From Bacteroidota bacterium (GTDB taxonomy: Bacteria; Bacteroidota; Bacteroidia; Chitinophagales; Chitinophagaceae): a stretch of DNA of 51,827 bases. The position numbers and the translations under genes are program-made. Shown here in pieces: positions 8,384-51,706 of the stretch (the stretch's first letter is position 1; every line of letters begins with the position of its first letter). The stretch covers positions 1-51,827 of the forward strand of contig JANXUL010000103.1 of NCBI GenBank assembly GCA_025356235.1, in the 5' to 3' direction. Below the pieces are notes generated by a model. The model did no database searches and was not told the origin of the DNA. It was given only the letters and a program-made list of their open reading frames with translations.

Positions 8384-8425
8384 GTGAATGGTGAATAGGC
8401 GGTTGTGAATGATTTTCCTGTATCC

Positions 8426-9358
8426 TTATTTTATAAATTTTACACCTGTCTGATTAATAGTTGTTACATAAGTGTGGTGTTCTAACCCCAGCTGTTCATA
8501 TATATGATGCATCTCTTTTTCTACCAGCTTTGCAGTTGATTCATCTTTACTCAGCATAAAAATAGAAGGCCCCGATCCGGAGATTCCCCCGCCCAATGCA
8601 CCTGCTTCTTTACTTTGTTGTTTTATCATGTCGAACCCGGGAATCAAAATGCTTCTTACAGGTTCTATTAATACATCTTCCAATGAACGGCCGATCAGTT
8701 CGTAATCGCTTTTTAATAGCCCCGCTACCAGCCCGCCAATATTACCCCATTGCCGGATGGCATCTTTTAATAAAACCTGCTGTTTTAAAATACCTCTTGC
8801 GTCAGCAGTACGTACTTCAATTTGCGGGTGTACGATGGTTACATACAAAGGCGGTGCAGTAAGTTCTATAATATCTAAAGGGAAAATAGACCGTATTAAA
8901 GTAACTCCTCCATAAATACAGGGTGCGATATTATCAGCATGTTTTACACCTGAAGCTACTTTCTCGCCATTCATGGCAAAGCGAACCAGGTCTTCTTTGG
9001 TAAAGCGGTCATTCAATAAACGATTAGCCGCTACAACAGCACCTGCAGCACTCGCAGCACTGGAGCCCACGCCGCTGCCGGGTTTAATGTGTTTGCAAAT
9101 CCGCAACTCAAAACCAATCGGCTCATTTAATTCCTCCAGCATAGCCAGCAATGCGGCACCTGCCACATTCAATTCGGGTTCGGTGGGTAAGTTGTATTCG
9201 TCTTCATTAATAATAATAATCCCTGCCTCATCTGTAAAACGGATATGCATTTCATCATACGGATCGTTAACTGCAAAACCAAGTACATCAAAACCGCAGA
9301 CCATGTTTGCAACGGTGGCGGGGGAACGTACAGATACAGAACCACCACTACCCATCAT
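8426..9358 (-). CDS. thrB: homoserine kinase
   Basis: 310 residues from the ATG at 9358; a second ATG follows at 9355. The GHMP-kinase ATP-binding motif PGSGVGSSAASA is at about residues 93-104, the N-terminal strand SPATVANMVCGFDVLGF is typical of ThrB, and GALGGGISGSGPSIF is the C-terminal GHMP motif. The frame also contains an ATG at 9415, but the extra 19 residues would be encoded by the right end of a spacer repeat (9363-9384) that recurs at other spacers, so I treat them as untranslated. That repeat leaves GGAG about 13 bases before the chosen start. The enzyme phosphorylates homoserine for ThrC. Confidence 0.9.
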   Translation of the reverse strand: MMGSGGSVSVRSPATVANMVCGFDVLGFAVNDPYDEMHIRFTDEAGIIIINEDEYNLPTEPELNVAGAALLAMLEELNEPIGFELRICKHIKPGSGVGSSAASAAGAVVAANRLLNDRFTKEDLVRFAMNGEKVASGVKHADNIAPCIYGGVTLIRSIFPLDIIELTAPPLYVTIVHPQIEVRTADARGILKQQVLLKDAIRQWGNIGGLVAGLLKSDYELIGRSLEDVLIEPVRSILIPGFDMIKQQSKEAGALGGGISGSGPSIFMLSKDESTAKLVEKEMHHIYEQLGLEHHTYVTTINQTGVKFIK

Positions 9359-9362
9359 ACTG

Positions 9363-9473
9363 CCCTGCTCCGTGAAGGGAGAGTAAAATAAATTATTTTG
9401 GAAGTGTAGTTTCATAAATGTTGATACGATTTTTTTAGTAAATCTTTTCGCCCCCGCAGGGGTAGTGGGGTTT
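9363..9473 (-). repeat. composite spacer element A1 (thrA/thrB)
   Basis: In mRNA sense, ACCCCACTACCCCTGCGGGG starts 2 bases after the thrA stop. The other end, CTCCCTTCACGGAGCAGGGC, finishes 4 bases before the thrB start. The two ends are imperfect inverted copies of the ends seen at 14590-14696, 15290-15394 and 21303-21431. The right inner part holds TTCCAAAATAA, as in the ilvN/ilvC copy. The element fills the whole spacer. Confidence 0.65.
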
Positions 9474-13418: not shown

Positions 13419-13430
13419 CTTTATTTTTTT

Positions 13431-13512
13431 ACTCACCTCCAATTACGCTTCGCTGGTTGATCCCTCTCTATTTCATAGAGAGAGGCGACAAGCGAAGCAA
13501 GGTCGGGATGAG
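13431..13512 (-). repeat. spacer repeat B1, nested hairpin (ilvC/ilvA)
   Basis: It is a nested inverted repeat: outer stem GCTTCGCT (13447-13454) with AGCGAAGC (13491-13498), inner stem CTCTCTAT (13464-13471) with ATAGAGAG (13475-13482). In mRNA sense it begins CTCATCCCGACCTTGCTTCG and matches the element at 47472-47528. It fills the spacer from just after the ilvC stop to the ilvA start and ends with GGAGG. Confidence 0.7.
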
Positions 13513-13515
13513 TGA

Positions 13516-14574: not shown

Positions 14575-14589
14575 TTTTGTTAGTTTGTA

Positions 14590-14696
14590 CCCCCTAACCC
14601 CTTGATGGGGAATGAAGGTTGTTTTGGAATGATAATTATCTATTTATACAAATTATTTCATTTTTTCTATTCCCCTCGCAGGCGGGGATGGGGTTA
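14590..14696 (-). repeat. composite spacer element A2 (ilvN/ilvC)
   Basis: The right end on the plus strand is CCCCCTAACCCCTTGATGGG (14590-14609), and the left end in mRNA sense is CCCCATCCCCGCCTGCGAGG, starting 3 bases after the ilvN stop. The ends face each other and are mutually complementary, so the transcript could form one long stem or two small hairpins. TTCCAAAACAAC near the right end matches element A1. Confidence 0.7.
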
Positions 14697-15284
14697 TTAC
14701 ATCGTAAACACTTCATCCTGCTTGTCTAAAAATTCATTCTCAATTAATTCTTCCCCTGGTTCTGCTTCATCAAACTCTTTCAGCTTCTCATGAAACCCTT
14801 TACTGTTTTTTATGATAGCTACCCGTGCACTCCGCACAAATTCAATAAGGCCATACGGTGCCAATACCTCTACCAGTTTATCTGTTTCTTCGCGGTGGCC
14901 ACTGGTTTCGAAAATGGTGTAGTCTTTCCGTATCACTACCGCCCTGGCGCCATGCTCGCGCAATAACCTTTCTACTTTTACTTTCTCTGCGATCTCATCA
15001 GTGGGTACTTTATACAAAGCAAGTTCCTGCCAGATGATCTCTTCATTTGTATTATAATAGGCTTTCAGTACTTCTACCTGTTTTTCAATCTGGCGTGCCA
15101 GTTTCCTTACTACTTCTTCGGTTTCTTCAATTACAATCGTAAACCGGTGAATACCTTCTGCTTCTGAAGGCGATGTATTCAGGCTTTCAATATTGATCTT
15201 TCTTCGGGAAAAGATGGTGGCAATGCGCACCAGTAAACCAATATGGTTTTCCGCATATACGGTTATGGTAAATTCTTGTTTCAT
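14697..15284 (-). CDS. ilvN: acetolactate synthase small (regulatory) subunit
   Basis: 195 residues. The N-terminal ACT domain (about 3-80) is recognisable from FTITVYAENHIGLLVRIATIFSRRKINIESL, residues 4-34, and HRFTIVIEE; the remainder is the C-terminal ALS small-subunit domain. It binds valine and confers feedback inhibition on IlvB. The C-terminus is acidic (EFDEAEPGEELIENEF). The spacer to ilvB upstream is entirely occupied by element A3, whose tail AGGAG lies about 8 bases before this ATG and probably serves as ribosome binding site. Confidence 0.93.
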   Translation of the reverse strand: MKQEFTITVYAENHIGLLVRIATIFSRRKINIESLNTSPSEAEGIHRFTIVIEETEEVVRKLARQIEKQVEVLKAYYNTNEEIIWQELALYKVPTDEIAEKVKVERLLREHGARAVVIRKDYTIFETSGHREETDKLVEVLAPYGLIEFVRSARVAIIKNSKGFHEKLKEFDEAEPGEELIENEFLDKQDEVFTM

Positions 15285-15289
15285 AGCCC

Positions 15290-15394
15290 AGCTCCTAATC
15301 TCCTTATGAGAGAATTAAATAATCGTTTTAAAAAAAATCTTTCCTGCATATTTTTTGTCTTTTCTTAACTCCCCCATCAGGGGGTTGGAGGGTA
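15290..15394 (-). repeat. composite spacer element A3 (ilvB/ilvN)
   Basis: In mRNA sense CCCTCCAACCCCCTGATGGG starts 2 bases after the ilvB stop. The other end, CTCTCATAAGGAGATTAGGA, stops a few bases before the ilvN ATG and contributes AGGAG. The right end is the most degenerate copy in the window, but its position and orientation match the other three elements. Confidence 0.6.
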
Positions 15395-18863: not shown

Positions 18864-18934
18864 TCTTTTCTTTTTATCCGGCTGTATATCTTTTATCAAC
18901 TTTGGTTGTGTCACTCACTTGTACGGCAGTAATG

Positions 18935-21293: not shown

Positions 21294-21302
21294 AGTACCT
21301 CA

Positions 21303-21431
21303 CCCCTATCCCTCAGAAGGGGAATTATGTTTTAATTTTGAATCGTTTCTTTTTTATTAAATATCAAAATGATCATAGCCCAAATAATATTAATCGCCCT
21401 CCTTCCAATTTCCCCTTCAGGGTGTTAGGGG
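21303..21431 (-). repeat. composite spacer element A4 (leuD/leuB)
   Basis: In mRNA sense it starts CCCCTAACACCCTGAAGGGG at 21431, so the TAA stop of leuD is part of the element. It ends TTCCCCTTCTGAGGGATAGG, with GGTGAGG just before the leuB ATG. TTCAAAATTAA near the right end corresponds to TTCCAAAATAA of A1. The ends are inverted relative to each other, as in A1-A3. Confidence 0.7.
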
Positions 21432-22006
21432 ATACGCTCGAATGCTTCTATCGCCTGCCTATTGTTTATGAGATAATCAATATCATCATAACCATTAAGC
21501 AAACATGTTTTTTTATATACATTAATATCAAATATTTCCTGGGCGCCTGTTGCATCAATTGTGATCGTTTGTTTATCAATATCAATGCTGATGGTTGCTT
21601 CATTGCCCAGGGCAAATAATTTCACTAAAAAATCGTCGCTTACTTTTACTGGAAGTACCCCATTATTCAAGGCATTGTTTTTAAATATGTCGGCAAAAAA
21701 ACTAGATACCACAGCTTTAAAACCATAATCCTGTAATGCCCACGCAGCATGTTCCCTGGAAGAACCGCAGCCGAAATTTTTACCCGCAATCAATACCTCA
21801 CCACTATAATCCGACTTGTTCAGCACAAAATCTTTTTTCGGTTTTGTATCATCATTATTCTCATAACGCCAGTCGCGAAAAAGGTTTTTCCCAAATCCAT
21901 CCCTCGTTGTTGCCTTTAAAAAACGTGCAGGGATGATCTGGTCCGTATCCACATTCTCCATAGGTAATGGTACGAAGCGGCTGTTTATTTTTTTTAATGG
22001 TGTCAT
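21425..22006 (-). CDS. leuD: 3-isopropylmalate dehydratase small subunit
   Basis: 193 residues, normal length. It forms the isopropylmalate isomerase with LeuC. The swivelling-domain motif is [20 protein letters not shown], and [12 protein letters not shown] lies near the N-terminus. The final codons and stop (ATC CCC TAA) overlap the end of the following repeat element, so the C-terminal IP and the termination codon appear to come from the repeat. Start ATG 22006; 48 bases separate it from leuC. Confidence 0.95.
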
Positions 22007-35781: not shown

Positions 35782-35784
35782 TGT

Positions 35785-35883
35785 AATCGTGAGTTGTGAA
35801 TGGTGAGTGGTAAATAGTGAGTGGTAAATAGTGAGTATGTAATTAAAGTAAGTACTAACAATTCACGACTCACAGCTCACGCT
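35785..35883. repeat. GTGAGT-type spacer repeat C1
   Basis: The spacer holds the tandem unit GTGAGTGGTAAATA twice, followed by another GTGAGT. Complementary words (ATTCACGACTCACAGCTCAC) lie at its far end, so the whole is an imperfect inverted repeat. The same words recur at 47551-47580 and 51641-51706. Confidence 0.6.
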
Positions 35884-35887
35884 TTGT

Positions 35888-47438: not shown

Positions 47439-47471
47439 TTGGCAAAGTAAACCGATTTGCAGCAAATTTAA

Positions 47472-47530
47472 CTCACCCCGACATTGCTTCGCTCGTCACC
47501 CCTCTCTGCTGGGCAAAGAGGGGGGGAGCT
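47472..47530 (+). repeat. spacer repeat B2 (upstream of serC)
   Basis: CTCACCCCGACATTGCTTCG, then CTCGTCACCCCTCTCTGC and AAAGAGGGGGGGAG. It matches repeat B1 (mRNA sense of 13431-13512), including the CCTCTCT...AGAGAGG-type inner stem. It lies between serC and the DUF502 gene. Confidence 0.65.
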
Positions 47531-47550
47531 TTGCTACTCCAAATATATTT

Positions 47551-47580
47551 GACGACTCACAACTGAGGATTCACGATTCA
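47551..47580 (-). repeat. GTGAGT-type spacer repeat C2 at the DUF502 stop
   Basis: On the minus strand GTGAATCGTGAATCCTCAGT is followed by TGTGAGTCGTC. The TGA stop codon of the DUF502 gene (47578-47580) is the first TGA of this repeat. Confidence 0.5.
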
Positions 47581-50437: not shown

Positions 50438-51643
50438 ATGCAAAAGATAATAACCGTACTTTTTCTCACAGCTACACTTACCATGGCATCCTGCGGCAAT
50501 AAAACCGAAGACGGCTCATTGGCAGGCAAAAAAGCCGAGATCGAAAAACTAAAAAAAGAGCAGGTAACCATTGGCGATAAAATCAAATTACTCGAAAAAG
50601 AAGTTGCTAAACTGGATACTTCTGCTGTAAAAGAAGACATCGCAAAACTGGTAGGAACTGCTGTCATTACCACACGGAACTTCTCACATTATATAGACTT
50701 ACAGGGCAGAGTAGATGCGGAAAATATTTCGTATATCTCTCCACGTTTAGGTGGTGGGCAGGTTCGTGCAATCTATGTTAAAAGGGGTGATTATGTGAAG
50801 AAGGGGCAATTGCTTTTGAGGTTAGATGATGCCATTGTTAAACAACAGGTGGCAGCAGCGAAACAAGGCACGGAAGCTTTAAAAACACAAATAACATTTG
50901 CGAAAGATGTATATAACAGGAGGAACAATTTATGGAAACAGGGAATTGGAACCGAGATAGAACTGATTACCGCAAGAACCAATGTTGAATCGCTGGAAAA
51001 ACAACTCAATGCCGCAAATGAAAATATTAAAGTCCAGCAGGAGCAGTTGAGTGGCGCGAATGTATATAGTGATGTGGATGGCATTGCAGATGAAGTGAAT
51101 GTACGTATGGGTGAGATGTTCACCGGTTTTTCCGGAACCATGCCGCAGATCAAAATCGTTAATACAAGCAATTTAAAGATCATAACTGATGTACCTGAAA
51201 ACTATAGCGGCAAAGTAAAACAGGGGTCAGCCTTACTGGTTACATTACCGGATATCAATAAGACATTCAATACTACAGTTTCTGTTTCCGGAAAAGTGAT
51301 TGATCCCAACAACCGTTCATTCCGCGCAGAAGCTAAATTGCCGCAGGATGCTTCTATCCGCCCAAACCAGATAGCACAGGTACGAATACTTGATTACAGT
51401 GCCCCTAATGCAGTCGCTATCCCTGTAAATACAGTTAGCACCGATGATAAGGGCAAGTATGTATATATAGCCGTTACTGAAGGTAGCAAGCTGATCGCTA
51501 AAAAAAGATCCATTGTAGTGGGTGAATTATACAATGACCTGATAGAAGTAAAAAGTGGATTGACCGCGGGTGATAAACTGATCATTGATGGTTACCAGAA
51601 TATTTATGACGGGCAGTTGCTGAAAACCGAGGTGAAGATGTGA
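50438..51643 (+). CDS. RND efflux periplasmic adaptor (membrane fusion protein), lipoprotein
   Basis: 401 residues. Lipoprotein signal with lipobox TMASC (Cys19). A coiled-coil start (KKAEIEKLKKEQVTIGDKIKLLEKEVAKLD) is followed by the biotinyl-lipoyl-like fold (YISPRLGGGQVRAIYVKRGDYVKKGQLLLRLDD). A hairpin with helices and a beta-barrel/membrane-proximal domain follow (NAVAIPVNTVSTDDKGKYVYI, LIEVKSGLTAGDKLIIDGYQNIYDGQLLK). It links the inner-membrane RND transporter to TolC. The TGA stop belongs to a GTGAGT-type repeat. Confidence 0.93.
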   Translation: MQKIITVLFLTATLTMASCGNKTEDGSLAGKKAEIEKLKKEQVTIGDKIKLLEKEVAKLDTSAVKEDIAKLVGTAVITTRNFSHYIDLQGRVDAENISYISPRLGGGQVRAIYVKRGDYVKKGQLLLRLDDAIVKQQVAAAKQGTEALKTQITFAKDVYNRRNNLWKQGIGTEIELITARTNVESLEKQLNAANENIKVQQEQLSGANVYSDVDGIADEVNVRMGEMFTGFSGTMPQIKIVNTSNLKIITDVPENYSGKVKQGSALLVTLPDINKTFNTTVSVSGKVIDPNNRSFRAEAKLPQDASIRPNQIAQVRILDYSAPNAVAIPVNTVSTDDKGKYVYIAVTEGSKLIAKKRSIVVGELYNDLIEVKSGLTAGDKLIIDGYQNIYDGQLLKTEVKM

Positions 51644-51706
51644 GTAGTGAATAGTGAGTCGTGAGTGTTTCCTCCTCACGACTCACCACTCACGATTGAC
51701 GATTCA
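51641..51706 (+). repeat. GTGAGT-type spacer repeat C3 with 12-bp hairpin
   Basis: GTGAGTCGTGAG (51654-51665) and CTCACGACTCAC (51675-51686) form a perfect 12-bp stem with a 9-base loop; further GTGAAT/ATTCAC words flank it. The repeat starts with the TGA that ends the adaptor gene. Confidence 0.65.

Follow-up and report, generated by a model that had tools for sequence, protein, structure and literature searches.

Three gene junctions in the window analysed here (the whole 51,827-nt contig JANXUL010000103.1, one of the 317 contigs of a 3.55-Mb Chitinophagaceae draft genome) are occupied by members of a dispersed Bacteroidota repeat, and a fourth carries a candidate copy. Each element consists of two inverted copies of a short unit around a free AT-rich centre. 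With slightly better than even confidence, we regard these elements as decayed copies of a REPIN- or MITE-like element that was mobilised as a DNA hairpin and is tolerated, or was targeted, mainly at operon and convergent junctions.

Composite elements in the spacers of the window

The end unit follows the consensus CCCC-Y-A-W-CCCC-TRAA-GGGG-N-R, a CCCC foot joined to a bulged 4-bp hairpin, and the repeats are hereafter termed the CCCC family. A covariance model (R1) derived from 66 units taken elsewhere, none of which occurs in the window, recovered five of the six ends of E2, E3 and E4 at window-wide E values of 0.00082-0.032 with filters off (Table 1). The start-side end of E3 gave no R1 match in this window search, and a single end of E1 was matched at chance level. 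E2, E3 and E4 are confirmed members of the family and E1 is a candidate. The initial annotation had placed all four spacers in one family with inverted GC-rich ends and an AT-rich centre; this architecture is seen at all four, whereas membership stands for three and is weak for E1. Scanning the window with the curated Rfam covariance models returned no match at gathering score.

Table 1. Elements of the CCCC family in the window, with flanking genes named from NCBIfam and matches to model R1.
Copy	Position	Strand	Junction	End units	R1 match
E1 (candidate)	9363..9473	-	thrA-thrB	inverted-repeat ends, weak family member	9445-9472: 8.2 bits (E 4.9)
E2	14588..14697	-	ilvN-ilvC	start-side 14588-14616, stop-side 14666-14697	23.9 bits (E 0.00092), 17.4 bits (E 0.032)
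E3	15289..15394	-	ilvB-ilvN	stop-side 15365-15394, start-side end diverged	19.0 bits (E 0.013), stop-side
E4	21300..21434	-	leuD-leuB	21406-21434, 21300-21328	24.1 bits (E 0.00082), 20.8 bits (E 0.0049)

The elements had further been described as filling their spacers exactly from stop to start codon, which holds only roughly: the TAA of leuD sits within the first E4 unit (21406-21434), a gap of 15 nt lies between the final G of E2 and the ilvC ATG, and the start of thrB is ambiguous, with ATG codons at 9358/9355 beyond E1 and another at 9415 within E1 that opens the thrB frame. The hairpin loop of the stop-side E2 unit measures 8 nt. The single orientation relative to transcription noted for the four spacers is of little informative value, being mostly a consequence of the element's symmetry. 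A fixed, end-specific orientation was rejected, stop-side and start-side units being nearly alike (C at position 5 in 18/48 and 19/48 units, respectively); the sole tabulated position tested that differed between them was position 13, with G in 1/48 against 8/48 units (uncorrected p 0.03).

Pairing within the end unit

Covariation was analysed in 103 elements (206 units) admitted at up to five mismatches per end and eight in total, and in an alignment (A1) of 66 of 112 unit sequences hand-chosen for variety (185 units found). Positions 5 and 21 form a covarying closing pair below the bulge, and it is at this pair that an imperfect-stem hairpin kept by pairing is observed. The 206 units carry T-A in 110, C-G in 69, A-T in 6, G-T in 3, C-A in 4 and other combinations in 14; the pair is thus Watson-Crick in 185/206 units, with three pair types, and its mutual information reaches 0.79 bits versus 0.22 for the next column pair. 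The corresponding A1 counts (n=66) are UA 32, CG 24, AU 2 and other 8, with no G-U. The foot, positions 1-4, is C in 200 to 205 of the 206 units, which were selected by consensus similarity. Compensatory change in the CCCC/GGGG core stem was sought and discarded: among the 206 units the core is nearly invariant, with 17 departures and no Watson-Crick replacement, and covariation therefore does not prove core pairing. RNA helices usually tolerate G-U-type pairs. Since G-T is scarce at 5-21, selection on folded DNA would seem to fit better than selection on RNA, as far as such small numbers can tell.

Distribution and copy number

Whole two-ended elements matching an exact pattern were found in 75 stretches, all 75 with Bacteroidota record titles, in a scan of one genome per species (84,980 species, contigs of at least 3 kb). 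The stem letters are fixed in this set by the pattern, and the inverted arrangement of the two units (75/75) is likewise a product of pattern construction; the 103 elements were obtained by a looser rule. Within the bacterial family, 32 of 147 genomes match at one mismatch, every listed reversed control being 0, and congeneric species differ in copy number (0 vs 15 and 0 vs 11 matches). Twelve genomes picked for holding whole elements contain 168, 69, 104, 246, 157, 39, 138, 283, 78, 158, 8 and 29 units, with reversed controls at 0. Single units also exist, 26 of 111 loci carrying one unit at up to three mismatches.

In the genome to which the window belongs, the 19-nt consensus end occurs six times at up to three mismatches and the reversed pattern not at all. 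R1 returned at least 19 matches at E≤10, a lower bound in that 150 of 1510 first-look candidates were scored, and four of the best five were themselves included in the model. Eighteen of the 19 were inspected by eye: 14 adjoin a stop or a start, three of these being window ends, and four lie within a reading frame, of which three have E >1 and may be chance matches. The best match is inside a valyl-tRNA-synthetase-like frame (by eye), and the neighbours recognised by eye from translations include the ribosomal protein junctions rplW-rplB and rpsN-rpsH as well as sdhA, pheA, smpB and kdp. The copies found here are mostly worn, which suggests that the family is of old date and at present inactive in this genome. 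The idea of a repeat family was to be given up if there were no further copies or if their placement were random; further copies were found, and their placement is non-random.

Contigs classed as viral yielded a unit in 109 stretches, with both ends (at up to three mismatches) in 28 of them. Two such contigs were inspected and by eye carry genes resembling tailed-phage genes; in one of them the element separates a stop codon from the start codon that follows. In five of the viral stretches (L325, L332, L336, L350, L358) two direct-oriented units stand exactly 2012 nt apart, and in L332 this pair lies among genes resembling structural genes.

Placement at gene junctions

Genes flanking the 75 loci were called with a simple longest-ORF script, which placed 48 elements in co-directional, 7 in convergent and 1 in divergent junctions and 5 in open frames, the remaining 14 being without a neighbour at a contig or locus end. 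In the sole divergent case (L096) a gene-calling error is likely by eye, and the upstream frame enters the element. The distance to the preceding stop was measurable at 65 loci: 35 elements begin 0-8 nt behind it, 13 begin farther off, and 17 provide the stop codon themselves. From the end of the element to the next ATG (47 cases), the gap is 1-5 nt in 19 cases and 7 nt in 2; it is 11-16 nt in another 14 and 18-22 nt in 3, and the other 9 ATG codons are more distant. In 7 of the 48 co-directional cases the downstream frame has a further ATG inside the element.

The initial proposal of a dispersed, mobile-looking repeat concentrated at operon-type junctions is borne out by this placement. Flank sums of at most 50 nt were observed for 37/47 elements as compared to 113/279 control co-directional spacers (40%, p 1e-7), or 6% of control spacer bases (p 2e-36), and divergent sites account for 1/56 copies as compared to 13.7% of control spacers (p 0.003) and 26.8% of their bases (p 6e-7); the controls exclude spacers holding a copy, and the tests assume independent loci, an assumption that common descent breaks for some of them. 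Copies at convergent junctions are tight too, with 1 + 3 nt (L051) and 4 + 0 nt (L111) between two stops, so that the close fit is not confined to sites next to a start codon.

Some elements may contribute to coding sequence. Three contigs from two genomes (L045, L047, L089) have the whole element within an open frame at comparable positions, apparently in frame and encoding an SPSGDGG-type peptide (by eye). The downstream ATG falls inside the element at what is apparently one junction in three genomes (L039, L042, L074; argC by eye), and the N-terminus of the downstream gene may there be element-encoded. By eye, the upstream gene in two different records (L037, L096) ends in an element-encoded tail, DPxPPTPKGELxGA.

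Filled and empty sites

Junctions of relatives were compared with those of the window. The spacer after leuD measures -8 to 48 nt in 22 of 29 relatives and is longer in 7 (the next gene not being identified in each), whereas that of the window measures 131 nt and is made up of the element. Among 29 relatives sampled at ilvN, L152 alone has a worn, element-like ilvN-ilvC spacer, and the sampled leuD and ilvN junctions of relatives are mostly without such an element (both by eye). The sister genome G087 was discarded as a filled/empty comparison: its leuD spacers measure 32 and 43 nt with a different next gene, and no element was seen in those inspected. At the junction preceding ribE, examined in 16 genomes with varying upstream genes, three loci (L295, L296, L297) have an element after a thrC-like gene; the centres of L296 and L297 are similar, which points to inheritance, and in L295 the thrC frame enters the element and terminates within it.

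Empty sites at orthologous-looking spacers, as a mobile repeat had been expected to leave, are represented by one pair from the ribE set, L301 being filled and L299 empty (45-nt spacer) at an apparently matching gene pair with a similar upstream protein tail. Furthermore, a copy interrupts a RAYT-like transposase frame in genome G147 (L245, C109), the homologue of which is intact in G151 (L254). Together with the copy-number differences between congeneric species, the L301/L299 pair and this interrupted frame speak for the mobility claimed initially.

Pairing between the two ends

The complementary ends had been suggested to fold into one long RNA stem bridging stop and start. Such a stem is the lowest-energy fold of 75/75 elements (mean -43.5 vs -18.7 kcal/mol for the halves), which is uninformative because any inverted repeat folds in this way. 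Across the two ends, position 5 is TT in 31, CT in 28, TC in 27 and CC in 11 elements (n=103), as if independent, and the letters are unlike in 55/103; in RNA roughly half of these pairs would remain as G-U and the other half become C-A, so that the independence weakens an RNA stem rather than ruling it out. Rare letters are common to both ends in 12 of 66 deviations versus 1.3 expected, which is compatible with common descent or with a stem; some letters are also shared at position 7 (T-T in 11/103). With the two ends varying independently at position 5, conservation of one long RNA stem from stop to start is not evident. These data do not support the suggested bridge as the conserved feature, the covarying pairing lying within each end and some convergent copies being equally tight between two stops. 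Most plausibly, each end is a unit recognised in its own right; a joint stem may form but is not required.

Search for a mobilising enzyme

Y1 transposases (PF01797, E≤1e-8) were detected in 82 of the 147 genomes of the bacterial family and showed no association with the element (19/32 hosts vs 63/115 others, p 0.69); none of 20 transposase neighbourhoods in host genomes contained a unit at up to three mismatches. As this cutoff misses divergent RAYT classes, wider searches were conducted on 12 named genomes at E≤0.001, where 11 were positive, and on 77 genomes with an alignment of the long-insert RAYT class (A2), where 35 were positive (16/32 hosts vs 9/33 non-hosts, p 0.08). Among 22 neighbourhoods of mostly weak transposase matches, five had a unit at up to four mismatches and none had units on both sides; one of the five copies lies in the gene, one 1 kb off and one about 3.4 kb off. 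In the high-copy genomes G150, G154 and G149 the A2 matches are weak and partial, and G138 had no match in the PF01797, named-genome or A2 searches. As the cognate mobiliser, RAYT was set aside on the grounds of genome presence and of neighbourhood, no consistent partner having emerged in these searches. Target-site duplications were not above chance at the 75 elements, where direct matches of 1 nt occur in 2, of 2 nt in 7 and of 4 nt in 1, and no parent insertion sequence stood out on inspection of those loci (25 of 111) that contain three or more units.

Terminal inverted repeats, as in MITEs, are present. The GT[AG]G foot of REP sequences is replaced by CCCC, and a cognate RAYT flanked by units was not found in the neighbourhoods searched. 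As foot motif and cognate gene were both tested with this outcome, the element is not filed under the RAYT-linked REP family; it works like a REPIN or MITE.

Other repeats at gene junctions

In relatives, other inverted repeats were often seen at these junctions, and spacers of 60-260 nt that lack the CCCC family (246 co-directional, 37 convergent, 51 divergent) were surveyed for them. An inverted-repeat score reached by at most one in 100 shuffles was obtained for 34/246 co-directional, 15/37 convergent and 2/51 divergent spacers; those at convergent sites will include terminators. Exact 4-mers recur in co-directional spacers at lag 7 (3.15-fold over shuffles, z 26) and lag 14 (2.72-fold, z 30), in convergent spacers 2.43- and 2.11-fold (z 6 and 5) and in divergent spacers 1.25- and 1.44-fold (z 2 and 3), the lag-7 value for coding stretches being 0.94. 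Single spacers exceeding all 60 shuffles at the 7-nt lag number 34/246, 3/37 and 1/51, respectively. In the genome of the window alone, lag 7 is 2.3-fold in 59 co-directional and 0.72 in 16 divergent spacers. Spacers of the CCCC family (n=62) reach 7.3-fold at lag 7, while lag 14 is not raised (1.07), in agreement with two words per arm only. By eye, the spacer preceding ribE holds a CCCC element in 4 of the 16 genomes, AT-rich iterated words in 6, a CTCTCC-family repeat in 1 and none of these in 5.

It is possible, if on the doubtful side, that the CCCC family belongs to a class of inverted operon-junction composites spread across the phylum, many built of 7-nt words, whose unrelated sequences interchange at the same junctions. 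These elements would then be seeded and exchanged through a common mechanism, such as an enzyme specific for one strand or some property of junctions that are tight and transcribed.

Further repeats were observed in passing. A second GC-rich inverted-repeat family, TCACCCCGAC..GCTTCGC..CCTCTCT / AGAGAGG..GCGAAGC..GGTGAGT, occupies window positions 13419-13515 and 47439-47577; its copies, these two and one in another contig of the same genome (L212, by eye), lie in same-direction spacers. Heptamer arrays of GTGAGTN/ACTCAC are present in or near spacers at 35782-35887, 51640-51700 and 8384-8425, the first two being inverted around a centre. A GTACAAG..GTGCGACGCAAC-type repeat stands beside branched-chain amino-acid genes at 18864-18934 and in L138, L140, L143 and L166, hence in different genera (by eye). 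In L298, a thrC-like frame terminates in a CTCTCC-family repeat (..TSPQPSTKERE*), the stop being supplied by another family.

Discussion

According to the reading that we favour, a putative mobilising enzyme would recognise the unit in a single strand of DNA folded on itself. Insertions would survive mainly inside operons or where two genes converge, since stop codons come with the units and no promoter is destroyed at such sites. The copies are probably co-transcribed, and any action in the mRNA, through a stem or through effects of RNase III or exonucleases, would be secondary; a stop-to-start RNA bridge is possible, and variation does not support it.

Three other explanations have to be weighed against decayed, hairpin-mobilised copies. 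The elements could be true REPINs moved by a REP-associated tyrosine transposase (RAYT), e.g. one of Bacteroidetes subclass 2.6 or of the long-insert class, that acts in trans or has meanwhile disappeared, which we consider somewhat unlikely. Their plan is REP-like, with a tetranucleotide foot, a bulged hairpin, inverted pairs and proximity to stops, subclass 2.6 genes are described as flanked by "atypical" structures in the excerpts of PMC6006769 consulted, and the copy inside the RAYT frame of G147, others near RAYT frames of G151 and G156 and the A2 counts of hosts and non-hosts point the same way; the CCCC foot, the transposase neighbourhoods (0/20 and 5/22 with a unit) and the weak, partial or absent A2 matches of G150, G154, G149 and G138 argue against it, as does the different-looking repeat that by eye follows the G147 RAYT. 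A cis-acting RNA device, in which the ends form a stem hiding or presenting the next start and coupling translation from the stop, would account for the long stem as lowest-energy fold, for ends that abut stop and start and for the letters shared at position 7 and among rare variants. We judge it distinctly unlikely in view of the independence of the ends at position 5, the convergent copies fitted between two stops and the sampled junctions of relatives that mostly lack such an element.

The elements might also have arisen without transposition, slippage and template switching in the spacer creating heptamer arrays and their inverted copies in place. Within the unit, CCCCTAA CCCCTRA forms a pair of heptamers, slippage of the polymerase has been put forward as an origin of heptamers (excerpts of PMC4692102), and the 7-nt lag is in excess both in element spacers and in other co-directional spacers; nevertheless, a bulged 19-nt unit recurring in 75 stretches phylum-wide, only some of them at shared junctions, and a copy that interrupts a coding frame make this origin very unlikely.

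A repeat that prefers the seam between stop and start bears on the evolution of operon spacing and on the gain of new stops, tails and leaders, and the CCCC family would represent a system of REP type that lacks the transposase known for REPs. Should the wider heptamer class prove real, one process would lie behind a noticeable share of medium-length operon spacers in this phylum (34/246 by inverted repeat and 34/246 by lag). In the portions of open-licence PMC text searched, we recognised no paper describing the CCCC family and found no description of inverted composites filling junctions as one phenomenon.

Several known systems share part of this design. REP, BIME and REPIN sequences, with RAYT (TnpA-REP), likewise combine a foot with an imperfect hairpin in extragenic inverted pairs, and may supply stop codons or lie in frames (excerpts of PMC3733652 and PMC6006769); the CCCC family differs in having a CCCC foot in place of GT[AG]G or CGTC tags and in that no consistent association with a RAYT, as neighbour or by genome, was found. 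The bacterial MITEs ERIC/IRU and YPAL/RU-2 (of enterobacteria), RUP and Correia/NEMIS are, in the texts consulted in part, also about 100-170 bp long, inverted, intergenic and sometimes coding, and YPAL is described as co-translated with upstream genes (excerpt of PMC2229807). Compared by description, they have other hosts, and the CCCC family shows no detected target-site duplication and has self-contained hairpin ends. The 80-132 bp palindromic intergenic candidate RNAs HMP2_1065, 1032, 4205 and 4078, mostly or entirely of Bacteroidetes, resemble the family by description, three of the four being predicted as terminators (excerpt of PMC8040213). Intergenic heptamers are reported, in excerpts of PMC4679880 and PMC4692102, as TAACTGA in Beggiatoaceae, Cyanobacteria and five Bacteroidetes, often near start codons and in ribosomal protein operons, as GGGNATC in Xanthomonas near the neighbouring frame on the 5' side, as GGGGA(C/T)T in Nostoc, and in Calothrix. 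As described there, these heptamers form direct arrays, whereas each arm of the CCCC family contains two copies of the word, which returns inverted at the opposite end of the spacer.
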